Below the pieces are notes generated by a model. That model searched no databases. It worked only from the letters and a program-made list of their open reading frames with translations, and was not told where the DNA came from. From Brachybacterium tyrofermentans (GTDB lineage Bacteria; Actinomycetota; Actinomycetes; Actinomycetales; Dermabacteraceae): a DNA stretch of 64,000 bases. Where the stretch lies: positions 62,001-126,000 of the forward strand of contig NZ_JABUXW010000005.1 in NCBI RefSeq assembly GCF_014897585.1, in the 5' to 3' direction. The position numbers and the translations under genes were made by a program. Positions 31-62,139 of the stretch are shown here, one piece after another (positions within the stretch are counted from its first letter, which is position 1; the number at the start of each line of letters is the position of its first letter).

Positions 31-103
31 GTCCCGTTGTCGCGACGGGCCTGTAAGTCCCGTTCCTGCGACGGGCCTGTAGGTCCCGTTCTTGCGACGG
101 GCC
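31..103. repeat. 26-bp tandem repeat with internal hairpins
   Basis: Nearly three head-to-tail copies (31-56, 57-82, 83-103) of a 26-bp unit. Each copy holds the inverted pair CCCGT...ACGGG around a 7-base loop, so the array can fold into three consecutive short hairpins. The loop bases vary while the arms are constant. It lies about 75 bp beyond the 3' end of the NlpC/P60 gene and may continue left of the window. A terminator cluster or intergenic minisatellite are both possible. Confidence 0.8.
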
Positions 104-178
104 GGGCCGGGCCAGCGGTGGGCTTGGCCAGGGGGTGGCTGAGGGCTGGTGTCGACGTGGGGATCGCGACTCGGCGGC

Positions 179-1297
179 TCAGCCGGCCAGGGCCACCCGT
201 CGGGCGCCGGCGTACTCGCCGATGGGGTCGTACTCGGTCAGCGACATGATCTCGACGCTGCGCGCGGCGTTGGGGGCCTGCATGATCAGGTCGTCCCCGA
301 TGTACAGGGCCACGTGGCGGATCGAGTCGCCACCCGGCTCGGATGCGAAGAACACCAGGTCGCCGCGCTGCAGGTCCTCCCGCTCCACCGGCTCCAGGCC
401 GGAGTGGTTCATCTGATCGCCGGCGTCGCGGTCGATCGAGATGCCGTGGTGGTGGAACAGCGTGTACGTGAAGCCCGAGCAGTCGAAACCGTAGGCGCTC
501 ACGCCGGCCCACAGGTAACGCAGCCCGAGGAACCGCTCGCCGGTGGCGACGATGTCCTCGACGGTGGGCAGCGGCGGCTGCTCGCCGTGCTCGCGCACCA
601 CGACGTCGTCGGCGGGCAGGTAGGCGTGACGCCCGCCGGGGACCGCGACCTTCACGGCCTTCGCGGTGCGGCCGAGCACCGGCAGGATCGTGTCGAAGGA
701 GACGTCGATCCCGGGGTGGTTGCCCGACGGGGTGCCGGTGAGGGTGCTGGTCAGAGCCGTGACGGTCGCGGTCGGTGCGGAGGCCGCCTGCTGGGCGAAG
801 TCCTCGTCGACCACGAGCTGCACGGTGGGCACCCAGCCGGGATAGCCGCGGGCGTCGCGCGGGGTGCCCTGTGCAGTGACCACGATGTGCGCCCAGTCGC
901 CGTCGATCTCGTCGACGATGACCTCGCTGCCCAGCACGGCCTGCGACTCGAGCTCGCCGGTCAGCCAGCGTCGCGGCTCGGTGTCCTGCATGTTCGCGTT
1001 CCAGGCGTCGAGGTCGACGGGGTTCGTGAGCGAGGGGTCATCGATGCCGGGACGGTTCGAGCCCGGCTCCACCCACAGCGTGGTGGCGGTGACCGCGACG
1101 TGCGCGGTGGCGCCGGGGGTGAGGCCCGCGCCCGGCTCGGGCAGGGTCGCCGGCCCGGCGGCCGGTGCGGCGGGGACCTCGGCCAGGGCAGGGGCGACGG
1201 CGCCGAGGCCGGCGACGGCGAGGCCGGCGGTGCCGGTCGCGGCCAGGCGCAGGCCGTCACGGCGGGTGAGGCGGACGGTGGGGGTGTGCGTGGACAT
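179..1297 (-). CDS. Secreted NlpC/P60 family peptidase with SH3-like domains
   Basis: Predicted exported cell-wall endopeptidase of 372 aa that would cleave gamma-D-Glu-diamino-acid bonds in peptidoglycan stem peptides. A twin-arginine-type signal (TRRDGLRLAATG followed by a hydrophobic stretch to about residue 39) precedes two SH3-like regions (about 60-160 and 175-235). The C-terminal NlpC/P60 domain (250-372) has catalytic Cys273 in FDCSG, His328 in RHVALYIG and a likely third polar residue at Asn343. I chose the ATG at 1297 because AAGGAGACTC lies just upstream. It is last in a three-gene operon with a dipeptide epimerase and a DUF819 membrane protein, an arrangement that suggests use of murein peptides, as in the ykf genes of Bacillus. 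Confidence 0.9.
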   Translation of the reverse strand: MSTHTPTVRLTRRDGLRLAATGTAGLAVAGLGAVAPALAEVPAAPAAGPATLPEPGAGLTPGATAHVAVTATTLWVEPGSNRPGIDDPSLTNPVDLDAWNANMQDTEPRRWLTGELESQAVLGSEVIVDEIDGDWAHIVVTAQGTPRDARGYPGWVPTVQLVVDEDFAQQAASAPTATVTALTSTLTGTPSGNHPGIDVSFDTILPVLGRTAKAVKVAVPGGRHAYLPADDVVVREHGEQPPLPTVEDIVATGERFLGLRYLWAGVSAYGFDCSGFTYTLFHHHGISIDRDAGDQMNHSGLEPVEREDLQRGDLVFFASEPGGDSIRHVALYIGDDLIMQAPNAARSVEIMSLTEYDPIGEYAGARRVALAG

Positions 1298-1396
1298 CTG
1301 GAGTCTCCTTCGACAGGTCCCCGAGCGGGGGCCGCAGGTCACGGGATGATGGGTGGGCGATCGGCTATCGGTCGAGAGCGCGGGTGGTCGCGCGGG

Positions 1397-2551: not shown

Positions 2552-2565
2552 CGGGTTCCCCTCTC

Positions 2566-3717: not shown

Positions 3718-3760
3718 GGGAGATCTCCTCGTCGGTCAGGAAGTCGCCGCCGTCGGGCAC

Positions 3761-3820
3761 AAAAAATCGGAAGCACCAGGGATCGCCGCCTCGGGCGAGG
3801 CGTGATCCGGGTGCTTCCGA
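3761..3820 (-). terminator. Intrinsic terminator after the DUF3870 gene, or leader attenuator of the DUF819 operon
   Basis: Three nested inverted repeats share one axis: TCGGAAGCACC (3767-3777) with its complement (3810-3820), GGATC/GATCC, and GCCTC/GAGGC around a 4-base loop. Read on the minus strand the stem is followed at once by six T (complement of 3761-3766), the textbook intrinsic terminator. It lies 50 bp past the DUF3870 stop but only 43 bp before the DUF819 start, so it could also act as a leader attenuator. Confidence 0.85.
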
Positions 3821-3869
3821 CGGGATCCGGTTCGGTGAGGTTCCGGGCAGACGGTGGGCGCTTTTGAAG

Positions 3870-4240: not shown

Positions 4241-4313
4241 CGACCGCGGCCGACGAGGGCCGACCGCGGCCGACGAGGGCCGACCGCGGCCGACGAGGGC
4301 CGACCGCGGCCGA
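4241..4313. repeat. 20-bp tandem repeat
   Basis: Three exact copies (4241-4260, 4261-4280, 4281-4300) and a 13-bp partial copy of a G+C-only-biased 20-bp unit containing the palindrome CCGCGG. It fills most of the gap between the secreted repeat protein (stop at 4352) and the DUF3870 gene. The copies being identical points to recent expansion. Confidence 0.9.
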
Positions 4314-4351
4314 GACGAATGCCGGCCGCGGTCGGGGAGTGGCTGGAGCGA

Positions 4352-5338
4352 TCAGCCCAGGTTCGCGGGGCCTGCCTCCGCGGCCTTCTGCTCGGCGGTG
4401 GCGCGACGGTCGGCGCGCTGGGAGTCGAGGCCATCGGCGTGGGCCTCGGGACCGGCGGTCGCGGCGAAGGCCTGGGCCTTCTGCGCAGCCGGTGCGAGGT
4501 CGGTGAACTGGCCGCCCATCTCCCCGCGCACGCGGTTGTCGGTGCCGGTCGGTGCCGGATCGTTGCCCTCGCCGGTCAGTGCGCCACGGATGATGTTGCC
4601 CGAGACGTCGACGCCGTCGAGGTTGTCCGAGAGGGTCACGTCGGAGCCGAAGTAGTTGCCGTCCTCGCAGTCGACGAGGCCGCCACCGGTGCCGAGCTGC
4701 ACGCCCGAGTTGCCGGTGAAGGTGGCCGCACCGTCGACCTCGCTGCTGCACAGGGAGGTGCCCTCTTCGTTCGCGGAGACGGTCAGTCCCTTCGCGAGGG
4801 TCGAGTCGATGATGTCGGTGTACAGCGTGTTCTCGCTGCTCACAGCGCCGTCGATGGTCACGGTCTGCAGGTGAACGAGGCCCTGCTCCACGGTGAGCTT
4901 GCCCCCGATCGAGGAGTCGTAGGAGTACAGGAAGGGATCGGCTCCGTCGACGGCACGCCCGGTGTAGGACCCGCCCAGGGCGGAGTCGTCGAGGTAGACG
5001 CCGTAGCCGCCCTTGCTGATCAGGTTTCCTGCCACCTCGGTGCCGGTGGCATCGAAGTAGCCCTCGGAGGAGACCACGACGCGGTCCGCGATGCTCGAGT
5101 CGGTCATGAGCAGATCGGCGCCGGCCTTCACCGTCACCTCGCCCTCGATGGTCACGCCGTCCAGCACGCAGGAGTCGCCCTTGTCGACGACGAGATCGCC
5201 GGGCACGGTGACGTCCGCGGCGTCCCCGTCGCAGTGGGTGGTCAGTGCCGCGGAGGCGGATCCGGCGCCGACGGCGAGGCCCGCGGAGGCGAGGGCGAGA
5301 GCGGAGAATGAGATGACAGTTCGGGAAAGGGGGCGCAC
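4352..5338 (-). CDS. Secreted protein with beta-helix-like repeats
   Basis: Exported protein of 328 aa of unknown function. A Sec signal peptide (basic start, hydrophobic residues 8-24, cleavage near AGSASA-AL) is followed by about 230 residues of short repeats rich in D, G, V and T, where strands such as TVPGDLVVD, VTIEGEVTV, DSSIADRVVV and STLAKGLTV recur every 20-25 residues. This is the look of a right-handed parallel beta-helix, common in pectate lyases and adhesins, but I see no catalytic motif. The last 50 residues are Ala/Glu/Gln-rich and probably helical. Two or three cysteines (after TTH, in SLCSSE, in VDCEDG) could form disulfides. GTG start at 5338 with AGGAG upstream. Confidence 0.75.
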   Translation of the reverse strand: MRPLSRTVISFSALALASAGLAVGAGSASAALTTHCDGDAADVTVPGDLVVDKGDSCVLDGVTIEGEVTVKAGADLLMTDSSIADRVVVSSEGYFDATGTEVAGNLISKGGYGVYLDDSALGGSYTGRAVDGADPFLYSYDSSIGGKLTVEQGLVHLQTVTIDGAVSSENTLYTDIIDSTLAKGLTVSANEEGTSLCSSEVDGAATFTGNSGVQLGTGGGLVDCEDGNYFGSDVTLSDNLDGVDVSGNIIRGALTGEGNDPAPTGTDNRVRGEMGGQFTDLAPAAQKAQAFAATAGPEAHADGLDSQRADRRATAEQKAAEAGPANLG

Positions 5339-11726: not shown

Positions 11727-11781
11727 GGGGTGCTCCTTCGTCGACGGGTGGTCCATCCAGTCTGCACCCGACGGCCGGGCG

Positions 11782-11853
11782 GGGCCCGACCGCGTGGCAG
11801 GGCCCGACGGCGTGGAAGGGCCTTGCCGCGTGGCGGGGACCGACCGCGGAGTC
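11782..11853. repeat. 18-bp tandem repeat reaching the GH15 stop codon
   Basis: Four copies (11782-11799, 11800-11817, 11818-11835, 11836-11853) of a degenerate 18-bp unit beginning GGGCCCGAC. The last copy overlaps the stop codon of the GH15 gene (11852-11854). The copies diverge at a few positions each, unlike the identical array at 4241. Confidence 0.8.
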
Positions 11854-13777
11854 AGTCCCGGGTCGTGGCGAGGGCGTCGACGGCGCGGATCAGGCCCAGG
11901 TGGCTGAAGGCCTGCGGGAAGTTCCCGGCCATGCGTCCGGCGCCGCTGTCGAACTCCTCGGCCAGCAGGTGCAGATCGTTCGCGCACCCCAGCAGCTGCT
12001 CCATGAGCGCCTCGGCCTCGTCGCGGCGACCGGAGGCGGCGTACTGCTCCACCAGCCAGAAGCAGCACACCAGGAAGGGGTGCTCATCCCCGGGCAGACC
12101 GTCCTGGCCCTGCGTGCGGTAACGCAGGATCAGTCCGTCCTCGGTGCGCAGGTCCTGCTCGATGCGGGCCACGGTGGCGAGCATGTGCGGGTCGTTCGCC
12201 GGCAGGAAGCCCGTGTGGGGGATCTGCAGCAGCGAGGCGTCCACCTCGGTGGAGCCGTAGGTCTGGGTGAGGGCTCCGTCGGCACCCACCCCTCGGGTCA
12301 TGATCTCCTGGCGCACCTGGTCTCTGATGTGCTTCCAGCGGGTGACCTGCTCCGTGGTGGCCGGCAGGCCGTGATCCTCGACGGCACGGACGGCGCGGTC
12401 GAAGGTCGCCCACACCATCACCCGGCCATGGGTGAAGTAGGCGGGGTCGCCGCGCATCTCCCAGATCCTCTGGTCGGGTTCGTCGATCCGGTCCTCGGTG
12501 TAGCGCACCAGTGCCTTCTGCAGCGGCCACGACCAGGCGGTCTCCTCCAAGCCGGCATCGCGCATCGCCGCGAGGGCGATCATCACCTCGCCCACCACGT
12601 CCGCCTGGTACTGATCGGCCGCCCCGTTGCCGACCCGCACCGGCACCGAGCCCTCGTAGCCCGCCAGATGCGGCACCTCCCGCTCGGGCAGGTTCCGGTC
12701 CCCGGTGATCGAGTACATGATCTGCAGCCGCTCCGGATCCCCGGCGATCGCCCGCAGCAGCCAGTCGCGCCAGGTCGCGGCGGCGTCGACGTGTCCGTGG
12801 CCCAGCAGCGCCTCGAGGGACAGGGCCGCGTCGCGCAGCCAGCAGTAGCGGTAGTCCCAGTTGCGCACCCCACCGAAGTCCTCGGGCAGGCTCGTGGTCG
12901 CGGCGGCGATGATGCCGCCGGTGCGGCGGTGGGTCAGCGCCCGCAGCACGAGCAGCGAGCGGGTCACCGGTTCTTCGTACTCGGCGTCGACCCGCACCTG
13001 GCCGAGCCAGCCGGTCCACTCCGCGATGGTGGCCTCGAGGGCGGTCTCGCTCTCGAGCGCGGCGGGCACCTGCTGCCAGGAGGGGAACCAGGTGAGCACC
13101 CAGCACGTGCTCTCCCCGGCGCGCAGGCGGTGCGTGCCCCGGTGGGTCCGGCCGTGCGGAGTGAGTGCGGGGCCGTGCAGCGCGATGCCGTCCCCGCCGG
13201 CGACGGCGATCAGCACACGGTTCCCGGCCTCGTCCTCGCCGCGGCGCACCCAGGGCACCGCCTGCCCGTACTCGAAGCGGATCTTCAGCTCCTGGAGCAC
13301 CTCGACCTCGCCCTCATGGCATTCCACATGACGCACGAGGTCCGCGTGGTCGTCGACGTCCCCGGAGAGGGAGGAGGCGCTCCCGGGGCCCGGCGAGGAC
13401 CCGGTCGCCTCACCCCCGGTGCTGTCGGCGTCGGCCACGGCGGAGTCGGAGTCACCGGTGTCGGTGCCGGCTCCGGTGCCGGATTCCCCGCCGCCGGTGA
13501 TCGGCATGTACTCGGTGACGGTGGCGGTCCCGGTGGGGGAGCGCCACACCGTCTCGAGCACCATCGTGCCGGGCAGGTAGCGGCGCGAGAGGACCTCGCC
13601 GTCAGCGATCCGCAGCGACCAGTGCCCGTTCTCGTCGTCGCCGAGCAGCGAGCAGAAGAGGGCATCGGAGTCGAAGCGGGGCAGGCACAGCCAGTTGATG
13701 ACCCCTTCCCTGGTCACGAGGGCGGTGGCGCGCTGGTCCGACAGCAGGGCGTGGTCTTCGATGAGCGGGCTGGTCAT
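11852..13777 (-). CDS. GH15 family glucoamylase/trehalase-like glycoside hydrolase
   Basis: Cytoplasmic inverting glycosidase of about 641 aa in GH15; actinobacterial members of this architecture are trehalases or glucoamylases. The N-terminal beta-sandwich (IEDHALLSDQRATALVTREG, INWLCLPRFDSDALF) precedes the (alpha/alpha)6 barrel, recognised by NWDYRYCWLRDAALSLEALL and GNGAADQYQADVVGE. No signal peptide. A Gly/Ser/Thr/Asp-rich insert of about 50 residues (near 95-150) splits the beta domain. ATG at 13777 is preferred, although GGAG sits unusually close to it and an upstream GTG at 13792 is possible. Divergent from the rclA-like gene across a strong palindrome. Confidence 0.87.
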   Translation of the reverse strand: MTSPLIEDHALLSDQRATALVTREGVINWLCLPRFDSDALFCSLLGDDENGHWSLRIADGEVLSRRYLPGTMVLETVWRSPTGTATVTEYMPITGGGESGTGAGTDTGDSDSAVADADSTGGEATGSSPGPGSASSLSGDVDDHADLVRHVECHEGEVEVLQELKIRFEYGQAVPWVRRGEDEAGNRVLIAVAGGDGIALHGPALTPHGRTHRGTHRLRAGESTCWVLTWFPSWQQVPAALESETALEATIAEWTGWLGQVRVDAEYEEPVTRSLLVLRALTHRRTGGIIAAATTSLPEDFGGVRNWDYRYCWLRDAALSLEALLGHGHVDAAATWRDWLLRAIAGDPERLQIMYSITGDRNLPEREVPHLAGYEGSVPVRVGNGAADQYQADVVGEVMIALAAMRDAGLEETAWSWPLQKALVRYTEDRIDEPDQRIWEMRGDPAYFTHGRVMVWATFDRAVRAVEDHGLPATTEQVTRWKHIRDQVRQEIMTRGVGADGALTQTYGSTEVDASLLQIPHTGFLPANDPHMLATVARIEQDLRTEDGLILRYRTQGQDGLPGDEHPFLVCCFWLVEQYAASGRRDEAEALMEQLLGCANDLHLLAEEFDSGAGRMAGNFPQAFSHLGLIRAVDALATTRD

Positions 13778-13877: not shown

Positions 13878-15410
13878 ATGAGCACCTCGACCACTGAACC
13901 TGTCCGCGACTCTGAATCTGTCCGAGCCTCTGAACCGGCCCGCGGCTCCGGTGACGCTCCCGAGCTGACCTTCGACGTCCTCGTGATCGGCTGGGGCAAG
14001 GGCGGCAAGACCCTCGCCGCCACGCTCGGCGGGGCGGGGAAGCGTGTGGGCATGGTCGAGCAGTTCGACACCATGCACGGCGGCACCTGCATCAACATCG
14101 GCTGCGTGCCCACCAAGACCCTCGTCCACGACGCGGAGCAGCGCCGTGAGGACGACGACGCGCAGCAGTTCTGGGCCCGCGCCGTCGAGCGCCGCGACAC
14201 CGTGGTGGGGAAGATGCGCGACGTCAACCACCACATGCTCGCCGACCTCGACGCCGTCACCCTGATCGACGGCCGCGCCCGCTTCACCGCCGAGCGCACC
14301 GTGCAGGTCACCGGCGGCGACGACGTGCTCACCGCCTCGGCCGACGTGGTCATCGTGAACACCGGTGCCACCCCGACCCGGCCGGACCTGCCCGGCATCG
14401 ACTCCCCGCGGGTGCACGACTCCACGAGCGTGCAGCACGTGGACCCGCTGCCCGCCCGCCTCACCGTGATCGGCGCCGGCCCCATCGGCCTCGAGTTCGC
14501 CTCGATGTTCGCCGGGTACGGGGCCGACGTCACGCTCGTGAACCGTCGTGAGCGCCTGCTGCCCGACGAGGACGAGGACGTCGCCGCCGAGGTCACCAGC
14601 GTGCTCGAGGGCGACGGCATCCACGTGCTGCACGAGGCCTCGGCGGTACGGATCGAGGACGGCGCGGGCAGTGGGAACAGCACCGCGAGCGAGGACAGCT
14701 CTGCCAGCGGGAGCAGCTCCGCGAGTGAGAACAGCTCTGCCAGTGCGGTGGTCGTCTTGCGCGTCGGCTCCGAGGAGCGCCGGATCGAGGCCGACGCCAT
14801 CCTGCTCGCCACCGGCAGGCGCCCCGCGACCGACGACCTCGGGCTCGAGCAGGCAGGGATCGACGTTGACGAGCGCGGCGCGATCGTGGTCGACGAGCAT
14901 CTGCGCACGAGCGCCGAGAACGTGTACGCGATCGGCGACGTCCACGGCGGGTCTCAGCAGACCTACCTCTCCCTCGACGACTTCCGGATCGTGCTCTCCC
15001 AGCTGCAGGGAGACGGGGAGCGCACCACCACCGACCGGGTCGCCGTGCCCACCACCACCTTCCTCACCCCGCCGCTCGCGGCCGTCGGTCTCACCGCCGG
15101 CGAGGCGCTCGCCGCAGGACGCGACGTGCTCGTGGCCTCGCAGAAGACCGCGACGATCAAGGCGATGCCGCGCCCGAAGGCCGTCGGCGATCCGCGCGGG
15201 ATCGTGAAGTTCGTGGTCGACGCCCGGACCGACGAGATCCTCGGCGCGAGGCTGTTCCACGTCGACGCGCAGGAGGTCATCAACCTCGTCGCGCTCGCGA
15301 TGCGCACCGGCACCACCGCCACGCAGCTGAAGAACGGGATCTGGACCCACCCGGCCTCGACCGAGTCGCTGAACGAGACCCTCGGGAAGCTCGAGCCGCT
15401 CGAGGGCTGA
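13878..15410 (+). CDS. rclA: RclA-like pyridine nucleotide-disulfide oxidoreductase
   Basis: FAD- and NAD(P)H-dependent class I disulfide oxidoreductase of 510 aa. The N-terminal FAD fold GWGKGGKTLAATLGG and the redox pair Cys71/Cys76 in GGTCINIGCVPTKTLVHD match RclA, the enzyme that reduces hypothiocyanous acid and protects against reactive chlorine species. The NAD(P) fold IGAGPIGLEFASMF, the second FAD motif AIGDVHGG and the C-terminal interface domain are complete. Two departures: a 27-residue N-terminal tail of Glu/Ser/Arg, and a 24-residue Ser-rich insert (267-290) made of four hexapeptide repeats. The gene ends in a tandem repeat array. Confidence 0.85.
   Translation: MSTSTTEPVRDSESVRASEPARGSGDAPELTFDVLVIGWGKGGKTLAATLGGAGKRVGMVEQFDTMHGGTCINIGCVPTKTLVHDAEQRREDDDAQQFWARAVERRDTVVGKMRDVNHHMLADLDAVTLIDGRARFTAERTVQVTGGDDVLTASADVVIVNTGATPTRPDLPGIDSPRVHDSTSVQHVDPLPARLTVIGAGPIGLEFASMFAGYGADVTLVNRRERLLPDEDEDVAAEVTSVLEGDGIHVLHEASAVRIEDGAGSGNSTASEDSSASGSSSASENSSASAVVVLRVGSEERRIEADAILLATGRRPATDDLGLEQAGIDVDERGAIVVDEHLRTSAENVYAIGDVHGGSQQTYLSLDDFRIVLSQLQGDGERTTTDRVAVPTTTFLTPPLAAVGLTAGEALAAGRDVLVASQKTATIKAMPRPKAVGDPRGIVKFVVDARTDEILGARLFHVDAQEVINLVALAMRTGTTATQLKNGIWTHPASTESLNETLGKLEPLEG
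14676..14747. repeat. 18-bp in-frame tandem repeat inside the rclA-like gene
   Basis: Four copies (14676, 14694, 14712, 14730) of an 18-bp unit encode the hexapeptides NSTASE, DSSASG, SSSASE and NSSASA. The insert sits in the NAD-binding domain between two beta strands, where relatives have a short loop. Confidence 0.9.
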
Positions 15411-15490
15411 GCCGTTCGGGGACTGAGCCACTCGAGGACTGAGCCGCTCGAGGGCTGAATCGCTCGAGGACCGAGCCGGGCCGGGGACTG
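15395..15490. repeat. 16-bp tandem repeat crossing the rclA-like stop codon
   Basis: Six copies of a 16-bp unit (GCCGCTCGAGGGCTGA and variants; the sixth is 17 bp). The first copy encodes the last residues and the stop codon of the rclA-like gene, so later copies repeat the TGA. The array fills the gap to the convergent S10 peptidase gene, whose stop is at 15514. Confidence 0.88.
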
Positions 15491-15513
15491 AGCCGAGTCG
15501 GGGGAGCGCCGGG

Positions 15514-24840: not shown

Positions 24841-26856
24841 ATGACCGTTTCACGCCCCTGGCCGCTCGGAGTCGATGGGATCATCTACGGCGGCGACTAC
24901 AACCCGGAGCAGTGGCCCCGCGAGGTGCGCCTCGAGGACGTCGACCTCATGCGCGAGGCCGGCGTGAACCTGGTCAGCGTCGCGATCTTCGCCTGGGCCA
25001 CGCTCGAGCCGCGCGAGGGCGAGTACGACTTCGCCTGGCTCGACGAGGTCATGGACGACCTCGCCGATGCCGGGATCAAGGTCGCCCTGGCCACTGCGAC
25101 CGCCTCGCCGCCGCCGTGGCTCACCCGCACTCACCCCGAGCTCCTCCCGGTCACCGAGGGCGGCACCGTGCTGGGCCAGGGCGGGCGCCAGGCCTACGCG
25201 GTCTCCGCGCCCCTGTTTCGGGAGTACGCGCTGCGCATGACGAGGGTGATGGCCGAGCGCTATGGCGAGCATCCCGCGCTCGCGCTGTGGCACGTCGACA
25301 ACGAGCTGGGCTGCCATGTCCCGCACGACTACTCCGACCATGCCGCGTTCGCGTTCCGGGGCTGGCTCGAGCGCCGGTACGAGACGATCGAGGCGCTCAA
25401 CGACGCCTGGGGCACGGCGTTCTGGTCCCAGCGCTACGACTCCTTCGAGGAGATCCTGCCGCCGCGTGCCGCACCGACCTACGCGAACCCCACGCAGCAG
25501 CTCGACTTCGCCCGCTATTCCAGCGACGAGCTGCTGACCCACTACCGGGCCCTGCGCGACGTGCTGCGCGAGGTCACCCCGGGCATCCCGGCCACCACGA
25601 ACTTCATGCTCTCCAGCGCCACGAAGTGGATGGACTACTACTCCTGGGCGGGCGACGTCGACCTGGTCGCCAACGACCACTACCTGATCGCTGCCCAGGA
25701 GCGCGGCCAGATCGAGCTGGCGATGGCCGCGGACCTCACTCGCGGCGTGGCCGGCGGCGACCCCTGGATCCTCATGGAGCACTCCACGTCGGCCGTGAAC
25801 TGGCAGCCGCGCAACCGCGCCAAGGGGCGCGGGGAGATGCTGCGCAACTCGCTCTCGCACGTCGCGCGCGGGGCGGACGGGATCATGTTCTTCCAGTGGC
25901 GCCAGTCCCGGGCCGGTGCCGAGAAGTTCCACTCCGCGATGGTTCCCCACGGCGGCCAGGACACCGACGTCTGGCGGAACACGGTGGCTCTGGGACGGGC
26001 GCTCGAAGCTCTCGCCCCCGTGCACGGCAGCCGCGTGCTGAACCGGGTCGCGATCGTCGTGGACTACCCCTCCTGGTGGGCCAGCGAGCTGGACTCCCAT
26101 CCCACCCAGGCGCTGCGCTACAACGAGGAGCTGCTGCGCTGGTACACCGCGCTGTGGGACCTCGGCGTCGGCGTGGACATGGTGCCCACCGGGATCGATC
26201 TCACCGGCTACGAGCTGGTCATCGCCCCCACCCTGTACTCGGTGCACGAGGAGGACGCCGACCGCTTGGCCGACGCCGCCCGCGCCGGCACCCAGGTGGT
26301 CATCACCTTCTTCTCCGGCATCGTCGACGAGAACGACCACGTGCACCTCGGCGGCTACCCCGGGGCATTCCGTGACCTGCTGGGGGTCCGCACCGAGGAG
26401 TTCTACCCGCTGCAGGCCGGGGAGATCCTCCATCTCGACGACGGGACCGACGCGGACCTGTGGAGCGAGAAGACGCATCTCGAGGGCGCTGAGGTGGTGC
26501 GCAGCTGGGCCGACGGTCCGCTGCGCGGCTGGCCCGCCGTGACCCGGCACGGGGTCGGGGCGGACGACGGCGCGGCCTGGTACGTGGCGGCCCGTCCTTC
26601 GGCGGAGGGGCTCGAGACCCTCGTGGCGGAGATCGTCGCCGCCGCGGGTGTGGAGCCCTCGGTGTCGGGCCTGCACCGCGACGTGGAGGCCGTGCGGCGC
26701 TTCGCCGAGGACGGCACCACCTACCTGTTCGTGCTCAACCACTCCGACCGGGACCAGGTGGTGCAGGTCAGCGGGCGCGAGCTGCTCACCGGCACCGACG
26801 CCGGCGGCGCCTTCACCGTCCACGCAGGCTCCGCCGCAGTGATCCAGGAGCGCTGA
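24841..26856 (+). CDS. GH42 beta-galactosidase
   Basis: Intracellular retaining beta-galactosidase of 671 aa. The A-domain opens with GGDYNPEQWP and NLVSVAIFAWATLEP; the acid/base is Glu155 in HVDNELG and the nucleophile is Glu313 in MEHSTSAVNWQ. The trimerisation B-domain and the short beta C-domain follow to the end. No signal peptide, so substrate must be imported. The start at 24841 follows GGAGGAGAC. The gene ends in a 17-bp duplication that includes its stop codon. The GH35 gene follows 113 bp later. Confidence 0.92.
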   Translation: MTVSRPWPLGVDGIIYGGDYNPEQWPREVRLEDVDLMREAGVNLVSVAIFAWATLEPREGEYDFAWLDEVMDDLADAGIKVALATATASPPPWLTRTHPELLPVTEGGTVLGQGGRQAYAVSAPLFREYALRMTRVMAERYGEHPALALWHVDNELGCHVPHDYSDHAAFAFRGWLERRYETIEALNDAWGTAFWSQRYDSFEEILPPRAAPTYANPTQQLDFARYSSDELLTHYRALRDVLREVTPGIPATTNFMLSSATKWMDYYSWAGDVDLVANDHYLIAAQERGQIELAMAADLTRGVAGGDPWILMEHSTSAVNWQPRNRAKGRGEMLRNSLSHVARGADGIMFFQWRQSRAGAEKFHSAMVPHGGQDTDVWRNTVALGRALEALAPVHGSRVLNRVAIVVDYPSWWASELDSHPTQALRYNEELLRWYTALWDLGVGVDMVPTGIDLTGYELVIAPTLYSVHEEDADRLADAARAGTQVVITFFSGIVDENDHVHLGGYPGAFRDLLGVRTEEFYPLQAGEILHLDDGTDADLWSEKTHLEGAEVVRSWADGPLRGWPAVTRHGVGADDGAAWYVAARPSAEGLETLVAEIVAAAGVEPSVSGLHRDVEAVRRFAEDGTTYLFVLNHSDRDQVVQVSGRELLTGTDAGGAFTVHAGSAAVIQER

Positions 26857-26873
26857 GGATCCAGGAGAGCTGA
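26841..26873. repeat. 17-bp duplication spanning the GH42 stop codon
   Basis: GATCCAGGAGCGCTGAG at 26841 is followed at once by GATCCAGGAGAGCTGAC at 26858. The first copy encodes the last residues and the TGA of the GH42 gene; the second repeats the TGA two bases out of frame. Confidence 0.8.
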
Positions 26874-26969
26874 CGAACCCGGGCGCTGACACCCGGCGGA
26901 CGGTGCGCGTCGGACGCGGGGTTCCTGCGACACTGGACGTAAGACGTTTCACCGAGAGGACGACCACCG

Positions 26970-42004: not shown

Positions 42005-42010
42005 CGCCGG

Positions 42011-42070
42011 CCCGTCAATGCGCCCGCCGTCCCGTCAGGGAGCCCGCCGTCCCGTCAACGCGCCCTGCGT
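42011..42070. repeat. 20-bp tandem repeat crossing the Nudix stop codon
   Basis: Three copies (42011, 42031, 42051) of a 20-bp unit beginning CCCGTCA. On the minus strand each copy contains TGA at the same place, and in the copy at 42051 this is the stop codon of the Nudix gene. The array fills the gap to the convergent mutase gene. Confidence 0.88.
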
Positions 42071-42435
42071 ACGGAGTCCTTGTAGCCCTGCGGCATCGGG
42101 GCGGTGAGCACCTCGTCGGCCGTGAACCAGCGCAGATCGGAGTGCTCCTCGCTGACCTGCAGCGACGAGCTGTCGGGGAGGGTCGCGCGGTAGGTGACGA
42201 TGCAGACCCGTCCCAGCTCGCCGAGGTCGTAGATCCACGAGTCCAGGATCGGGCCGACGTCGACCGCGAGGCCGGCCTCCTCGAGGAGCTCGCGCCGCAG
42301 CGTGTCCTGGGGCGAGGCGTCCTCGGGGTCGGGCCGGCCGCCCAGCAGCTCCCATTCCTGACGCGGGTTCCGTCCCAGCAGCACGCGGCCGTCGGCGTCC
42401 AGCAGGACGGCTTTGATCGAGACCGCGAGGCTCAT
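42055..42435 (-). CDS. Nudix hydrolase
   Basis: Nudix-fold pyrophosphohydrolase of 126 aa. The catalytic core RELLEEAGL is intact (metal-binding glutamates present), but the upstream part GGRPDPEDASPQDTLR does not keep the canonical glycine/glutamate spacing. It starts inside the stop codon of the MazG-like gene (ATGA), so both are made together; both belong to housecleaning enzyme families removing damaged nucleotides. Ends in a tandem repeat. Confidence 0.85.
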   Translation of the reverse strand: MSLAVSIKAVLLDADGRVLLGRNPRQEWELLGGRPDPEDASPQDTLRRELLEEAGLAVDVGPILDSWIYDLGELGRVCIVTYRATLPDSSSLQVSEEHSDLRWFTADEVLTAPMPQGYKDSVRRAR

Positions 42436-42878
42436 GATCCGGCGCCCGTGGTCGCGGCCGGTCCGACGCCGGTGGCCGCGGCCGGTCCGGCACCCGTGGT
42501 CGCGGCTGATCCGACGCCTGTGGCCGCGGCCGTCCCCGTCGGCCCCGTGCCCGCCGAATCCCGCGCCGGCACCGCGCGCTCGTACTGGAACCATTTCTCG
42601 GTGACTGCCTCGACCGGGTCGATGCCCATCTGCTGCGCATAGACCAGGCACATGCCGAGCACGTCGCCCACCTCGTCGGCCAGCACCTTCCGCTGAGCAT
42701 CGGCCGCCAGCCCGCGGTCGCGGCTCTGCCCGGTCGCGGTCAGGTGCGCCTGCGCGAGCTCCCCGACCTCCTCGGTGAGCTTGAGCAGCGCCCATTCGCC
42801 GGAGCGTTCGATGCCGTAGACCTCCGCGTACTGGGTGGAGAGCTTCTCGATCCGGGCGGCGATGTCGTGGAGGTCCAT
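42432..42878 (-). CDS. MazG-like nucleotide pyrophosphohydrolase with repeat C-terminus
   Basis: All-alpha NTP pyrophosphatase of 148 aa. The metal motifs EEVGELAQA and DEVGDVLGMCL lie in the first 95 residues. Residues after about 100 form a low-complexity tail with four octapeptide-like repeats (AAATGVG/AATTGAG pattern) coded by a 24-bp tandem DNA repeat; the catalytic domain is complete without it. Upstream lies the FAD monooxygenase on the same strand. Confidence 0.82.
   Translation of the reverse strand: MDLHDIAARIEKLSTQYAEVYGIERSGEWALLKLTEEVGELAQAHLTATGQSRDRGLAADAQRKVLADEVGDVLGMCLVYAQQMGIDPVEAVTEKWFQYERAVPARDSAGTGPTGTAAATGVGSAATTGAGPAAATGVGPAATTGAGS
42436..42531. repeat. 24-bp tandem repeat encoding the MazG-like C-terminus
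   Basis: Four copies (42436, 42460, 42484, 42508) of a 24-bp unit, alternating two slightly different versions. The array runs up to the last codon of the MazG-like gene. Confidence 0.88.
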
Positions 42879-48489: not shown

Positions 48490-48614
48490 CAGACGATCCT
48501 TCCTGGAGCGGGATCGGACCCGCCCACCCGAGGTACGGCGTCGTCGAAGCGGCGGCGTCGCTCTCAGTATGCGCCCCGGCCGCGGGCGGACGGGGCGATC
48601 ATCAGGAAGCGTTC

Positions 48615-48662
48615 TGCGTCTGCGTCTGCGTCTGCGCCTGCGCCTGCGTCTGCATCTGCGTT
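48615..48662. repeat. 6-bp tandem repeat after the PfkB kinase gene
   Basis: Eight copies of a 6-bp unit (TGCGTC with variants TGCGCC and TGCATC), beginning 12 bp past the kinase stop codon at 48674. On the minus strand the frame stays open across the whole array after the stop. Confidence 0.85.
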
Positions 48663-48673
48663 CGCGTCGGCGT

Positions 48674-49588
48674 TCAGGTTCGCGTCCGCAGCTCGGCGAG
48701 GTGCGGGGGCTGGGCGCCGTGACGCCCTACGGTGAGCGCGGCGCTGCGGAGCGCGATGCGGGCCCAGCCCTCGACCGTCCGCCGGCGCAGGTCACCGGTG
48801 CGCACGGACTCGTCGCCGTCCTTCGAGAGCACGGCGTACAGCAGCCCGGACATGAAGGCGTCGCCTGCACCGATCGTGTCGACCATCGATGTCGGCTCGG
48901 CCGGCATCCGGCCAGACCACTCGGCGGTGCTGAGGAAGCATCCGCACGCACCGAGGGTGACTACGAACAGTCGCACCCCGGCCCCGTGCATCCTTGCCGC
49001 GACCTCGCCCGGTGACGCGCCCGGGTACAGCCACTCGAGGTCCTCGTCGCTCATCTTGACCAGGTGGGCGCGGCCGATGGCGACCTCGAACCGTGCCAGC
49101 GCCTCGTCCCGGGGGAGGCAGAGGGACGGCCGGATGTTGGGGTCGAGGGAGACGAGGGTGGAGGGGGTGGCCGCGGAGAGTGCGGCCGAGACCTCGGACG
49201 CGCCGGGCTCCAGGACCATCGCCAGCGACCCCGTATGAAGCGCCCGCACCTCACCGACGCTGATCGGGCCCGGGTCCCAGTCGATGTCGAAGGAGTAGAT
49301 CGCCGCACCGTCGGGGCCGATCCGGGCCACGGCGGTGGAGGTGCGATCGGGCCCGGCCGAGATGGCTGGTACCAGGCCGACGCCCGCCTGCTCGAGATGG
49401 CTGCGCAGCTCGTCCCCGTAGGCGTCCGGCCCGATCCGGCACAGCAGATCGGTCGCCACCCCGAGCCGCGCGAGCCCCACGGCGATGTTGGCCGGACTGC
49501 CGCCCGGACGCGCCTCCTCGGCGCCGTCGGCCCCGATCACCACGTCGGTGAGCGCTTCGCCGACGACCAGCACGGTCAGGTCGCTCAT
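48674..49588 (-). CDS. PfkB-family carbohydrate kinase, probable fructokinase
   Basis: Ribokinase-fold kinase of 304 aa. Signature 1 GGSPANIAVGLARLG and signature 2 DTIGAGDAFMSGLL, with the catalytic Asp in GAGDA, are complete. The start ATG overlaps the GH32 stop by 4 bp; it is last in a fructan operon, so phosphorylating the released fructose is the obvious role. Ribokinase-type specificity cannot be excluded. Confidence 0.87.
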   Translation of the reverse strand: MSDLTVLVVGEALTDVVIGADGAEEARPGGSPANIAVGLARLGVATDLLCRIGPDAYGDELRSHLEQAGVGLVPAISAGPDRTSTAVARIGPDGAAIYSFDIDWDPGPISVGEVRALHTGSLAMVLEPGASEVSAALSAATPSTLVSLDPNIRPSLCLPRDEALARFEVAIGRAHLVKMSDEDLEWLYPGASPGEVAARMHGAGVRLFVVTLGACGCFLSTAEWSGRMPAEPTSMVDTIGAGDAFMSGLLYAVLSKDGDESVRTGDLRRRTVEGWARIALRSAALTVGRHGAQPPHLAELRTRT

Positions 49589-52683: not shown

Positions 52684-52743
52684 GGCGGTACTCCTTCGTA
52701 ACGGTGATGCAGTGAGGGGGTGATGCAGGGAGGGGATGCGGGG

Positions 52744-53685
52744 TCAGCTCTTCAGAGCGCCGAGCGTGGCGCCCTTGATGAAGTGGCGCTGCAGGAAGGG
52801 GAAGGCGATCAGGAGCGGGATCGTGGAGACGACGATCATCGAGTACTTGAGCAGCTCGCCCATCTTCTGGGCGGCGGCCGTGCTGTCCATGGAGGCCATG
52901 TCCATCCCGGAGGCCGAGGCCTGGGACTGGATGAGCACATTTCGCAGGATGAGCTGCAGCGGATACTTCGATTCGTCGTTGAGGTAGATCATCGCGTCGA
53001 AGAACGCATTCCAGTTCGCGACGAGATGGATCATCACCATCAGCACGATGAGCGGCTTGGACAGCGGGATCGCGATGCCGAAGAAGAAACGGAAGTCGGA
53101 GGCACCGTCGAGCTGGGCGGCCTCTCGCAGCTCTGGGGAGAGGTTCTGCTGGAGGAACGTGCGGGCGATGATCAGGTTCCAGACCCCGACTGCGCCGGGC
53201 AGTACGACCGCCCACATGGTGTTGAGCATGCCGAGCTCCTTCACCACGAGGTAGCGGGCGATCATGCCGCCGTCGAAGAACATCGTGATGACGAACAGGA
53301 TCATGAAGAGGTTGCGTCCGGGCATGTCCTTCCTGCTCAGGGCGTAGGCGCCGGTGAGGATCATGGTCACGCTGAGCGCGGTGCCCACCACCGTGTACAG
53401 CACGGAGTTCGCGAACCCGCGCACGATGGTCGAGGTCCCGAAGATGGTCAGGTAGCCGTCGAACGTGATCCCCCGGGGGAAGAGGACGACCTTGCCCTGC
53501 TGGACGAGGCTCGGGTCGGAGATCGACGCGATCACGATGAAGTAGAGCGGATAGACGATCAGCACGATCGCCACGGCGATCAGGCCGTAGGTGACCACGC
53601 CGAACAGAGGATCTGCCATGCGGCGGTGGAAGGGCTCCCTGCGCGGGGAGTTCTTCGCGGGGGACAGGGTGCTCGACATGTTCAT
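52744..53685 (-). CDS. Lpl-type ABC permease (LplC-like) of the fructan operon
   Basis: Permease of 313 aa with six helices, YPLYFIVIASISDPSLVQQG after the first, coupling loop REAAQLDGASDFRFFF and end QRHFIKGATLGALKS. ATG at 53685 overlaps the upstream permease stop by one base. A second in-frame ATG two codons on (53679) is possible. Confidence 0.87.
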   Translation of the reverse strand: MNMSSTLSPAKNSPRREPFHRRMADPLFGVVTYGLIAVAIVLIVYPLYFIVIASISDPSLVQQGKVVLFPRGITFDGYLTIFGTSTIVRGFANSVLYTVVGTALSVTMILTGAYALSRKDMPGRNLFMILFVITMFFDGGMIARYLVVKELGMLNTMWAVVLPGAVGVWNLIIARTFLQQNLSPELREAAQLDGASDFRFFFGIAIPLSKPLIVLMVMIHLVANWNAFFDAMIYLNDESKYPLQLILRNVLIQSQASASGMDMASMDSTAAAQKMGELLKYSMIVVSTIPLLIAFPFLQRHFIKGATLGALKS

Positions 53686-54698
53686 CACCACAGGCTCGAT
53701 TGGTTGGCCTTCTTCGCGACCCAGTTGAAGGTCAGGAGAAGCAGGAGGTTGAGGACGGAGTTGAAGAGCCCGATGGCTGCTGAGTAGCTGAACTGGGCGT
53801 TCTGCAGGCCGGTCTTGTACACGTAGGTGTTGATGACCTCGGAGGTGGGGAGATTGAGGTCCGTCTGCATCAGATAGACCTTCTCGAACCCGAGGTTGAA
53901 GATGTTCCCCACGGCGAAGATGAACAGGATCGTGATGACGGGAAGGATCCCGGGGATGTCGATGTGCCGGATCCGCTGGAAACGATTCGCGCCGTCCATC
54001 CGGGCCGCCTCGTGCAGCGACGGATCGATGGCCGTCAGCGCCGCGAGGTAGATGATCATCGAGAAGCCGGCGTTCTGCCAGATGTCCGAGCCGATGTAGA
54101 GGGGCCGGAACCACTCAGGCGTCCCCATGAAGAAGATCGGTTCGCCGCCCAGCAGGGAGATCGCGTGGTTCACCATGCCGGAGCTGGGGGAGAACAGCAG
54201 GTGGATCATGCCCACGATGACCACGACGGAGATGAAGGACGGCGCGTAGAGGATCGTCTGCGTCATCCGCTTGAACCGCTCGCTGGGCAGCTGGTTCACG
54301 ATGAGGGCGAGGATGATCGGGACCGGGAACGCCACCAGCAGGCCGACGGTGTTGATCGTCAGCGTGTTGGCGACCAGCCGTTCGAACTGGAACGAGGTCA
54401 CGAAGGCGACGAAGTGGTCCAACCCCACCCAAGGGCTCCAGAAGAACCCGTCGACCGGGTTGTAGTCGCGGAACGCGATCTGGGCCCCGTACATCGGCCA
54501 GTACTTGAAGACGACGAGGTAGATGAGCGCCGGGGCGAGTAATACGTATAACTGCCAGGCCTGAAAAATGCGGGTCGGGAGGTGCTTTCTGGCGCGCGGG
54601 GGCGGAGGCCCGGGCGATGCTCCCTGAGGTGGAGCGCCGGGGTCGGAATCGGTCGGCGACGTGGTTCCGACATCGGTGGCGGTGAGCGAGTGCGACAT
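53685..54698 (-). CDS. Lpl-type ABC permease (LplB-like) of the fructan operon
   Basis: Permease of 337 aa with a 40-residue Pro-rich tail, first helix LYVLLAPALIYLVVFKYW, loop GAQIAFRDYNPVDGFFWSPW and coupling loop HEAARMDGANRFQRI. Two adjacent ATG codons exist (54701, 54698); the second has better spacing to AAAGGA and overlaps the LacI stop by one base. Confidence 0.87.
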   Translation of the reverse strand: MSHSLTATDVGTTSPTDSDPGAPPQGASPGPPPPRARKHLPTRIFQAWQLYVLLAPALIYLVVFKYWPMYGAQIAFRDYNPVDGFFWSPWVGLDHFVAFVTSFQFERLVANTLTINTVGLLVAFPVPIILALIVNQLPSERFKRMTQTILYAPSFISVVVIVGMIHLLFSPSSGMVNHAISLLGGEPIFFMGTPEWFRPLYIGSDIWQNAGFSMIIYLAALTAIDPSLHEAARMDGANRFQRIRHIDIPGILPVITILFIFAVGNIFNLGFEKVYLMQTDLNLPTSEVINTYVYKTGLQNAQFSYSAAIGLFNSVLNLLLLLTFNWVAKKANQSSLW

Positions 54699-55750: not shown

Positions 55751-55785
55751 CGGTTCGTCGTGCGTCGGTTCGTCGTGCGTCGGTT
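55751..55785. repeat. 15-bp direct repeat in the leader of the fructan operon
   Basis: CGGTTCGTCGTGCGT occurs at 55751 and 55766, followed by a 5-bp partial copy, 40-70 bp upstream of the LacI start. Further upstream, the imperfect dyad CCAGTGTGATCCGCTGG (55830-55846) and an A+T-richer patch TTATTCGTATGA (55850-55861) may be operator and -10 region; no promoter is certain. Confidence 0.6.
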
Positions 55786-55929
55786 GCGTCGGCCGTGTCG
55801 GCCAGTTCGGCTGCGTCCGCGCAGCGGCGCCAGTGTGATCCGCTGGACGTTATTCGTATGACGAGGATCCTGCACTGCGAACTTCGCGCGTGTCAAGAGC
55901 GACGGCGAGTGGGGCCTCTCTGCCCGCTG

Positions 55930-56549: not shown

Positions 56550-57590
56550 ATGACGTCACCACATACGCCCGCTCCCGTTTCCCTGTCCGACTCGTCCGTG
56601 CCCGACGCCCTCGACGCCCTCGGCGACCTCGTGGATGTCGTCGTGATCGGCGGTGGCGCCGCCGGTCTCAACAGCGCGCTCATGCTGGTCCGCTCCCTCC
56701 GCTCGGTGGTCGTGATCGACAGCGGAGATCCTCGCAACGCCCCGGCCGAGGGCATCCACGGCCTGCTCGGCAACGAGGGCACGCCGCCGGCGGAGTACCT
56801 CGAGCGCGGGCGCGAGGAGGTGCGCCGGTACGGCGGCATCATCGTGCCAGGCGAGGTCACCTCCGCGCAGGCCGCGGAGCCGTCGGCCGACGGGGACCTG
56901 CGCTTCACTGTCGATCTCGCGGACGGTCGCCGGCTCACGGCCCGCCGGCTCCTGGTCGCGACCGGGCTGCGCGACGAGCTGCCCGAGATCCCGGGCCTCG
57001 CCCGGCATTGGGGGCACGGGCTCGTCCACTGCCCCTTCTGCCACGGCTATGAGGTGCGCGGTGAAGCCATCGGCATCATCGCGACCCGCCCGGCATCCCT
57101 CCACCAGGCGCTCATGTTCCGTCAGCTGAGCGAGGACATCACCGTCTTCGTCCACGGGTTCGAGCTCGACGAGGACTCCCGGGAGCGCTGCGCCGCCCGG
57201 GGCATCCCCGTCATCGAGACCGGGATCGAGGAGATCGTCGCCTCCGACGACGGCTCCGTCGCGGGGGTGCGGCTGGTCGGCGGAGAGGTCGTGCCGCGCA
57301 CCGTGCTCGTCGCAGCGACCGTGATGCACCCGCGGCTGGAGGGCCTGGACGCGCTGGGTCTTGCCATTGAGGAGGTGCCCGGCGGGATGGGCGAGAAGAT
57401 CTCCAGCGGCTTCGCCGGAGCCACCGAGGTGCCCGGGGTCTGGGTGGCCGGCAACGTCACCGATCCCAGCGCCCAGGTGGGGCCGTCGGCCGCGGCCGGG
57501 TCGCTCGCCGGGGGACACATCAACGGCATGCTGGTCATGGCCGATGCCGAGGCGGCGGTGGCGGCGCACCGGGAACGCTCCGCCGCCTGA
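56550..57590 (+). CDS. Thioredoxin-reductase-like FAD/NAD(P) oxidoreductase
   Basis: Flavoenzyme of 346 aa of the TrxB fold: FAD motif VVVIGGGAAGLNSALML, redox pair in HCPFCHGYEV, second FAD motif VWVAGNVTDPSAQVGPSAAAGS. The NADPH loop lacks the usual GGGDSA run: it reads GIIATRPASLHQALMF, so reaction and partner may differ from true thioredoxin reductase. No thioredoxin gene is adjacent. The last codons merge into an 8-bp repeat. Confidence 0.85.
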   Translation: MTSPHTPAPVSLSDSSVPDALDALGDLVDVVVIGGGAAGLNSALMLVRSLRSVVVIDSGDPRNAPAEGIHGLLGNEGTPPAEYLERGREEVRRYGGIIVPGEVTSAQAAEPSADGDLRFTVDLADGRRLTARRLLVATGLRDELPEIPGLARHWGHGLVHCPFCHGYEVRGEAIGIIATRPASLHQALMFRQLSEDITVFVHGFELDEDSRERCAARGIPVIETGIEEIVASDDGSVAGVRLVGGEVVPRTVLVAATVMHPRLEGLDALGLAIEEVPGGMGEKISSGFAGATEVPGVWVAGNVTDPSAQVGPSAAAGSLAGGHINGMLVMADAEAAVAAHRERSAA

Positions 57591-57630
57591 CCGCCTGACC
57601 GCCTGACCGCCTGACCGCCTGACCGCCTGA
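57583..57630. repeat. 8-bp tandem repeat containing the stop codon
   Basis: Six exact copies of CCGCCTGA. The first copy supplies the last codons and TGA stop of the thioredoxin-reductase-like gene. Because the unit is 8 bp, the TGA recurs in all three frames within 24 bp, closing every frame. Confidence 0.92.
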
Positions 57631-58372: not shown

Positions 58373-58613
58373 TTACTCGTCCATGAGGCGCTCAGATCGG
58401 TGTTCGGTCACCGGTCTTCGCCGCGGACTCCAGCTGTCCACCACCGCTACAGTCTCCTACAACGGGACGGTCCGCAAGTTTATTCCCGCCGGATGTGAGC
58501 AGAGCTCGCCTCCGTCCTACAGGGACCATGGCGAGCAGCGGTCGTGCAGCCGATGATTCCTGGGCGGTCGAGGAGTCCCGTGCGACCGAGGGACTCCGCA
58601 CGGGCGGGGGAGG

Positions 58614-59912: not shown

Positions 59913-59973
59913 GGGCCCTTCTCGGGGTGGGGTGTGGGGTCGAGGTGGTGATGCTGGTCCCCGGCGGGCGGGG

Positions 59974-60996: not shown

Positions 60997-61103
60997 GGGG
61001 TGCTCCTTCGTGCTGGGTCGTTCCCGTCCGATCAGGTCCGGTCCGGGGACCGGGATCGCTCGGGTGATGACCCCATTCCACGACCTGCACGCGGCCTGGG
61101 GGA

Positions 61104-61134
61104 GTCCCTGCCGAGGGGTGTACCGGCAGGGGAC
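61104..61134. promoter_or_regulatory. Inverted repeat between adh and XRE genes
   Basis: CCCTGCCG (61106-61113) and CGGCAGGG (61124-61131) are perfect complements 10 bp apart, flanked by GT/AC extensions with one offset. It sits 46 bp upstream of the XRE start in the divergent gap, where an autoregulatory operator would be expected. Confidence 0.5.
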
Positions 61135-61179
61135 CTCTCCGGCCGGGCGGCGCGGCTCGCGCGGTCCTAAGGTGGCGGC

Positions 61180-62139
61180 ATGGACAATCGAGCCGAGGTT
61201 CGCGAATTCCTCATGTCGCGCCGTGCGAAGGTGACGCCGCAGGCCGCAGGGCTGCCCGCGGGCGGCGGGTCCCGTCGGGTGCCGGGGCTGCGTCGCAGCG
61301 AGGCCGCGATGCTCGCCGGGGTGAGCGTCGAGTACTACGCCAAGCTCGAGCGCGGGGCGATCGCCGGGGCGTCGGCCTCCGTGCTGGATGCGGTCGCCAC
61401 GGCCCTGCAGCTCGACGAGACGGAGCGCATCCACCTGCTGGATCTGGCCCGCGCGGCGGACGGCATCCCGACGTCGGGCCGGCCCCGTCGGCGCAGCGCC
61501 GCGACCCCCGCTCCGGTGCGCCCCGCCCTGCAGTGGGCGCTGGACTCCCTGACCGACGGCGTCGCCTTCGTGCGCGATCAGTACCAGAACCTGCTGGCGA
61601 CCAACGAGCTGGGCCGCGCCTTCTACTCGCCGCTGATCGGTGACGGCACGGCGGGACGGATCCCCAACCTCGCCCGCTTCCAGTTCCTCGATCCGGCCTC
61701 GAAGGACTTCTATCCCGAGTGGGAGCGGTTCGCGCAGATGTGCGTGGGGAGCATGCGCGTCGAAGCCGGGAAGGACCCGCACGACACGACGCTCCAGGAC
61801 CTGGTGGGTGAGCTGTCCACGTGCAGTGACACCTTCCGCCGGCTGTGGGGTGCGCACGACGTGCACACCCACGGGTCCGGGACGAAGCGCTTCGAGCATC
61901 CGGTGGTCGGCGAGCTGACCGTCGCCTACGAGGAGCTCGTGCTCACGGCGGAGCCGGGTCGCGCGATGATCGTCTACTCCGCCGAGCCGGGCTCGCAGTC
62001 CGAGGAGCGGATGAGGCTGCTCGCGAGCTGGGCGGCGACCCGCCGCGCCGAGCAGCAGCCGGACCGACATGCCGGGCAGCAGCCGGAACGAGATGCCGGG
62101 CGGCAGCCGGACCGACATGCCGGGCAGCAGGCCGGATGA
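61180..62139 (+). CDS. XRE-family regulator with MmyB-like ligand domain
   Basis: Regulator of 319 aa. The family opening REFLMSRRAKVTPQAAGLP is followed by the helix-turn-helix RVPGLRRSEAAMLAGVSVEYYAKLERG, then an MmyB-type domain (LLATNELGRAFYSPL, FHHRLWGAHDV-like GELSTCSDTFRRLWGAHDV and HPVVGELTVAYEEL). The last 30 residues are three repeats of a Gln/Pro/Asp/Arg/His/Ala/Gly octapeptide from a 24-bp DNA repeat and lie outside the conserved domain. Divergent from the alcohol dehydrogenase. Confidence 0.88.
   Translation: MDNRAEVREFLMSRRAKVTPQAAGLPAGGGSRRVPGLRRSEAAMLAGVSVEYYAKLERGAIAGASASVLDAVATALQLDETERIHLLDLARAADGIPTSGRPRRRSAATPAPVRPALQWALDSLTDGVAFVRDQYQNLLATNELGRAFYSPLIGDGTAGRIPNLARFQFLDPASKDFYPEWERFAQMCVGSMRVEAGKDPHDTTLQDLVGELSTCSDTFRRLWGAHDVHTHGSGTKRFEHPVVGELTVAYEELVLTAEPGRAMIVYSAEPGSQSEERMRLLASWAATRRAEQQPDRHAGQQPERDAGRQPDRHAGQQAG
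62053..62136. repeat. 24-bp tandem repeat encoding the XRE regulator C-terminus
   Basis: Three full copies (62053, 62077, 62101) and a half copy of a 24-bp unit, in frame, reaching the stop codon. Encoded octapeptides resemble QQPDRHAG. Confidence 0.92.

Follow-up and report, generated by a model that had tools for sequence, protein, structure and literature searches.

Bacterial variable-number tandem-repeat (VNTR) and minisatellite loci carry tandem arrays that are explained by slippage, and their copy number is expected to vary. The archaeal Borg elements, as characterized in the repeat-related parts of one report (PMC9879509), contain head-to-tail arrays of mutually unrelated units that formed recently and independently and whose density is genome-specific; their unit lengths are divisible by 3 within genes while most intergenic ones are not, partial repeats flank the arrays, and some arrays start in the end of an open reading frame. 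Tandem repeats with units of 6-11 bp are over-represented in intergenic but not in coding DNA of the archaea Methanococcus voltae, M. aeolicus and Natrialba magadii (PMC4060949), while in the Beggiatoaceae the motif TAACTGA forms intergenic tandem repeats, 13 sets of which overlap the stop codon of the upstream gene (PMC4679880). A count is also at hand from a member of the genus Brachybacterium, as 1,146 tandem repeats were found with Tandem Repeats Finder (TRF) in the 4.2-Mb draft genome of B. phenoliresistens W13A50 (PMC4172268). Here we analysed a 64-kb stretch of DNA (hereafter the window) from Brachybacterium tyrofermentans (assembly GCF_014897585.1, contig NZ_JABUXW010000005.1, positions 62,001 to 126,000), part of a 4.6-Mb draft genome in 108 contigs that we label G000, in which short tandem arrays cluster at the 3' ends of genes, often across the stop codon. 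We consider it probable that these arrays are the product of a genome-wide process of tandem duplication that is filtered by selection, with arrays surviving mainly where they are harmless.

The excess of arrays at gene 3' ends is real, strong and genome-wide. For all position tests we used arrays with a TRF score of at least 50 and a period of at most 60, and an array was counted as near a stop or start codon when it lay within 30 bp of it. Nine of the 20 arrays of the window were near a stop (1.8 ± 1.2 at random, with a maximum of 6 in 500 shuffles) and three were near a start (2.0 at random). The clustering at 3' ends put forward in the original prediction was confirmed in 48 other stretches of 20 kb from the same genome (960 kb, window left out), where 102 of 367 arrays were near a stop (random 34.0 ± 5.3, maximum 50 in 300 shuffles) and 37 near a start (random 35.3 ± 5.1). 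Of the intergenic sequence, arrays took up 14.3% in the 60 bp next to stops, 2.9% in the 60 bp next to starts and 7.3% elsewhere, so that density around stops was not equal to that elsewhere between genes; the coverage was 1.1% inside genes, 2.6% in their last 60 bp and 1.7% in their first 60 bp. By type of gap, convergent gaps, bounded by a stop at either side, were the richest (18.0%), followed by co-directional (6.4%) and divergent ones (4.7%), and an array was present in 41 of the 94 convergent gaps of at least 40 bp in G000 and in 16 of 44 in a second Brachybacterium genome, G018. In this latter genome (480 kb of a single-contig assembly) 50 of 167 arrays were near a stop, against 15.7 ± 3.8 at random, with 11.6% of the intergenic sequence in arrays near stops and 2.2% near starts. 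Since the pattern recurs in a single-contig assembly, it is no assembly artefact of one draft. Shuffling of bases inside 30-bp blocks reduced the array load of G000 from 38.2 to 2.5 per 100 kb. As to the draft assembly itself, the first 55 bases of contigs C13, C15 and C19 (L017, L019 and L023) are a perfect array of 6-7 bp units; 3 of the 10 large G000 contigs with the first base covered thus start inside a 55-bp array (none of 12 small contigs had a terminal array), and so long arrays probably broke the short-read assembly of this genome.

The anatomy of the arrays bears two marks of purifying selection on proteins. Firstly, of the 35 stop-spanning arrays in the 960-kb sample, 33 have the stop codon in their first unit, to within 3 bp, where 13.9 would be expected for a random position, as do 9 of 10 in G018 (4.4 expected). 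The protein is therefore unchanged, and the arrays mostly reach at most one unit into the gene, all further copies lying past the true stop. Secondly, periods inside genes are almost always multiples of 3 (173 of 176 in G000; 97 of 109 in G018), compared with 53 of 121 and 9 of 35, respectively, between genes. Both marks fit a process in which short tandem duplications, unspecific in sequence, would arise across the whole genome by replication slippage or template switching at few-base microhomology, most of them then being removed by purifying selection. A duplication inside a gene would be kept almost only if its length were a multiple of 3, an intergenic one directly upstream of a gene would survive less often, and one located 3' of a gene would survive almost freely. 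Where a duplication spans the stop codon, the true stop would stay in the first copy and the protein would be unchanged at any unit length, which would be why stop codons so often sit inside a repeat. Exact two-copy intergenic duplications in G000 carry a mean of 3.6 extra matched bases against about 0.8 by chance (n = 51), the trace expected of slippage or template switching at microhomology. Moreover, across 16 Brachybacterium species the genic array load rises with the intergenic one (Spearman 0.64, p 0.008), as would be expected of a process acting genome-wide. From the whole we infer a slippage step and a neutral standing of the arrays.

In the window we called 55 genes with our own codon-usage script rather than a standard caller and detected arrays with TRF, which diverged arrays escape; many of those found are imperfect (75-90% matching). 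TRF returned an array at each of the ten places named in the original prediction, and Pfam matches were obtained for all but one of the genes that the prediction names there. Four of these arrays contain a stop codon, and not five as had been claimed. They are a 16-bp unit repeated 6.4 times (15393..15495) over the stop of a pyridine nucleotide-disulphide oxidoreductase gene (13983-15410, +; the rclA of the prediction), in the convergent gap between this gene and gene 15514-17025 (-); a 17-bp unit repeated 3.0 times (26841..26890) over the stop of the GH42 gene (24841-26856, +), the nearest named relatives of which are four Brachybacterium sequences with 83-89% identity; a 20-bp unit repeated 3.0 times (42005..42065) in a convergent gap, which spans the stop of the Nudix gene (42055-42435, -) and whose first base directly follows the stop of gene 40586-42004 (+); and a perfect array of six copies (6.0) of the 8-mer CCGCCTGA (57583..57630) over the stop of a second oxidoreductase gene (TrxR-like; 56598-57590, +). 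The array credited with a fifth stop (18/36-bp unit, 11767..11849) begins 2 bp past the stop of the GH15 gene (11852-13777, -). An array of 6-bp units (10.2 copies, 48613..48673) adjoins the stop of the PfkB gene (48674-49588, -) without a gap. Further downstream of their genes lie a 26-bp unit repeated 2.9 times (28..103), 75 bp past the stop of the NlpC/P60 gene (179-1297, -), in whose units we observed a short inverted repeat rich in guanine and cytosine (CCCGT...ACGGG), and a perfect 20-bp array of 3.7 copies (4241..4313), 38 bp past the stop of gene 4352-5338 (-), a putative secreted protein in the prediction for which the Pfam search gave no match. The two remaining arrays are wholly coding and in-frame, each encoding the C-terminal tail of its protein: a 24/48-bp unit (42438..42532, -) in a MazG-like protein (42432-42878, -) and a 24-bp unit repeated 3.7 times (62047..62136, +) in an MmyB-type (XRE) regulator (61309-62139, +). 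They end 6 bp and 3 bp, respectively, before the last base of the gene, stop codon counted. Beyond the ten places, there are arrays of a 16-bp unit (2.1 copies, 52703..52735), 8 bp past the stop of gene 52744-53691 (-), and of an intergenic 15-bp unit (2.7 copies, 55751..55791).

The units are highly diverse and the arrays weakly conserved. Among 210 arrays, 208 consensus units were distinct by exact match, rotation and strand allowed, which bears out the earlier view that they are not one mobile family. At the 3' end of the GH15 gene an array with a score of at least 50 is present in 5 of 15 relatives (L126-L140), each with a different unit, the rest having none or a weaker one. For the other array-bearing genes of the window, none of 18 orthologous ends, 8 of which belong to the two genes flanking a single window array, carried an array with a score of at least 40 in the range examined. 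The array at the GH42 end, where the last 17 bases are repeated past the stop, is absent from the four named Brachybacterium orthologues. The TrxR-like orthologue of G013 has three copies of a stop-spanning 9-mer, GTCTGAGTC, where the window has its six copies of an 8-mer, and that of G022 has a 20-mer array; in the seven other relatives examined nothing with a score of at least 50 was found within 60 bp of this stop. In 3 of 11 relatives, the stretch read downstream of the gene that ends at 42004 contains an array with a score of at least 50, its first base lying 3, 63 and 96 bp, respectively, beyond the stop; their units, compared by eye, are other ones, and the downstream sequence differs among relatives. 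With orthologous ends that either lack an array or have one with other units, the arrays look, on sequence comparison, younger than the species and independent in origin.

Several observations weigh against duplication and selection as the whole account. In raw terms, arrays start 1.6 to 1.9 times as often in the 20 bp next to a stop as further downstream. In a within-gap null, each array was re-placed randomly in its own gap, with starts avoided and an overlap of one unit into the gene allowed. Arrays at stops then numbered 31 against 26.9 expected in the co-directional gaps of G000 (one-sided p 0.12), and 21 and 22 against 16.1 each at the two sides of its convergent gaps (one-sided p 0.06 and 0.03); for G018 the figures were 8 against 8.7 in co-directional gaps, and 7 against 7.0 and 9 against 7.1 in convergent ones. 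Four of these six tests lean to the stop side, making a weak stop-side hotspot possible. The null itself under-predicted arrays near starts (9 observed against 3.8, and 6 against 1.5), because it assumed that the last 20 bp before a start are avoided. A strong stop hotspot was rejected, as the raw excess is mostly gone after gap-size randomization. Also adverse are the multiples of 3 among intergenic periods of G000, which exceed one third (53 of 121; 30 of 51 for exact duplications), and so some of these 'intergenic' arrays may sit in genes missed by the caller; the arrays of G018 near starts (24, against 16.3 ± 3.7 at random) and their somewhat raised frequency in the first 120 bp of its genes; and the microhomology excess, which is weaker elsewhere (2.6 for intergenic duplications of G018, n = 8; 2.57 and 1.20 for genic ones) and may be inflated by GC-rich low complexity. 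Finally, GH15 ends bear arrays more often than the ends of other genes in the region and are possibly a recurrent site.

On balance, it does not seem to be the stop codon itself that is targeted. What survives of the proposal of a repeated process 'tolerated or selected' at translation ends is local duplication tolerated there, whereas a selected function of the stop, or an attraction to it, finds little room in a within-gap excess that is small and mostly not significant. Nor is the idea of a source of C-terminal tails supported. Arrays within coding sequence show no particular preference for the C-terminal end: per 10 kb, G000 has 2.26 in the last 120 bp of genes, 2.76 in the first 120 bp and 1.96 in between, and the values for G018 are 3.23, 5.08 and 2.21, respectively.

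A mutational hotspot at transcript or translation ends that adds duplications on top of selection, for example through R-loops or polymerase conflicts past the stop, which would be worst between convergent genes, is in our estimate improbable, even if it fares best among the alternatives. It would agree with convergent gaps being the densest and with the weak stop-side excess within the gaps of G000. However, this excess amounts to little in G018, and convergent gaps should also be without promoters of the flanking genes, so that lack of constraint explains their density.

We regard it as very unlikely that the arrays represent terminators of transcription or elements of RNA stability whose effect is enhanced by multiplication. 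Hairpins do occur in a few units (e.g. those of the array at 28-103), and fold scores better than z = -2 were obtained for 6 of 113 3' arrays against 1 of 91 other intergenic arrays. Yet the units of 3' arrays on the whole show no better folding than shuffled ones (mean z -0.05; 113 of 117 scored), and strong hairpins outside arrays occur at a similar frequency whether a flank has an array (30 of 143 in G000; 10 of 42 in G018) or not (69 of 282 and 39 of 122, respectively). The position of arrays relative to hairpins is also random-like, with 15 upstream and 18 downstream (16.8 and 16.2 expected). A role as terminator spacers, suggested by 18 of 18 arrays lying upstream of the first strong hairpin, was discarded as a selection effect, given that arrays had been admitted only if they started no more than 60 bp from the stop; without this limit the arrangement was random.

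Least credible of all is a stop-codon safety array, selected because extra in-frame stops would catch read-through ribosomes: the next in-frame stop is indeed nearer in genes with stop-spanning arrays (median 15.5 codons, n = 36, vs 56, n = 714, in a comparison set that takes in genes with another gene directly downstream), but duplication of the stop alone shortens this distance, periods that preserve the reading frame show no clear enrichment at stops (12 of 27 arrays across a stop, compared with 28 of 76 of the remaining 3' arrays and 53 of 121 arrays between genes), the stop is included in only 27 of the 103 arrays that reach the 3' side, and arrays are seldom matched at the gene ends of relatives.

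The array load itself varies between lineages. Over 16 Brachybacterium species the number of intergenic arrays per kb of intergenic DNA ranged from 0.11 to 1.24, G000 being the highest, although the samples of relatives are small (mostly 40-80 kb each, except for G018) and single values are rough. Counting all arrays, G016 (40.0 per 100 kb), G020 (38.3) and G000 (38.2) stand together, while the array-poor G023 (7.5) is no richer than its own shuffle (8.8). At 8-kb loci from other genera, all of them GH42 neighbourhoods, near-stop density was 0.6% in Micromonospora, 0.0% in Nocardioides, 3.0% in Streptomyces and 5.0% in other actinobacteria, and 80-kb samples of two order-mates gave 9.3% (G024) and 1.0% (G025). 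A high load thus occurs outside Brachybacterium as well.

We searched 38 genomes for repair genes that might differ between rich and poor lineages. NucS, which is reported to be unable to correct indels (PMC8228993), is present in 37, the exception being one low-completeness genome, and a MutS_V match was found in none of the 38. Missing MutS was rejected as a permissive cause: array-poor relatives have the same background, and as methyl-directed repair is described as efficient only on loops of 1-3 bp (PMC4060949), its absence may hardly matter for units of 6-26 bp. SbcC was matched in 36 of 38 genomes (none over the curated cut-off), a Y-family polymerase in 37, XseA in all 38 (37 over the cut-off) and Ku in 24. 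The presence of none of these genes separates array-rich from array-poor genomes; Ku, for instance, is present in the rich G000, G013, G015 and G002 and in the poor G023, G010, G004 and G021, and absent from the rich G018 and G020 and from the poor G007. In G022, an array-rich genome that is 85% complete, the match to XseA (the exonuclease VII large subunit) lies in three pieces with one internal TGA (G022:C1:2555184-2556318). It is conceivable, if doubtful, that short tandem duplication occurs at an elevated rate in some Brachybacterium lineages, G000 being one of the most extreme, owing to a heritable change in replication or repair other than the loss of NucS, SbcC, Ku, Y-family polymerases or exonuclease VII. 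Should this be so, the genus would form a natural mutator series, with gene 3' ends as its neutral recorders.

The array pattern likely has an ordinary cause. Its interest lies in showing that what looks like a designed feature of gene ends can be produced by a mutational process, and in the simple test that tells the two apart, namely whether the first unit holds the stop codon. Intergenic density differs roughly tenfold among congeners that share their mismatch-repair genes, which would open the genetic control of tandem duplication to direct tests, and the arrays may serve as strain-typing markers.

Compared with bacterial VNTR and minisatellite loci, the arrays described here are likewise probably of slippage type and share the traits of neutral repeats (units are unrelated, the frame is kept inside genes, and loci are not conserved between species), but their load is high across the whole genome (an array in 41 of 94 convergent gaps). 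Among the matches listed from open-licence PubMed Central full texts, none reported a concentration of tandem arrays at gene ends, be it in Brachybacterium or in another actinobacterium; the tandem-repeat count for B. phenoliresistens W13A50 is from the same genus and stands in the relevant passage without position or cause (PMC4172268). The TAACTGA repeats of the Beggiatoaceae are similar as short intergenic tandem repeats of which some overlap stops, yet they consist of one heptamer, mostly just upstream of starts and with a proposed regulatory role (PMC4679880), whereas the units here differ from each other and intergenic density is 2.9% near starts against 14.3% near stops. The three archaea mentioned above are alike in having an intergenic excess of tandem repeats with longer units in single lineages, though the hosts differ in domain and stop-codon position is not addressed in the repeat-related passages of that work (PMC4060949). 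Borg repeats have the same frame rule, independent origin, unrelated units, flanking partial repeats and genome-specific density; they differ in that Borg units are perfect, A-enriched and extrachromosomal, while those of Brachybacterium lie on a bacterial chromosome of about 70% GC, have many imperfect copies and, unlike what is described for Borgs in that report (PMC9879509), show a clear bias towards gene 3' ends and convergent gaps.

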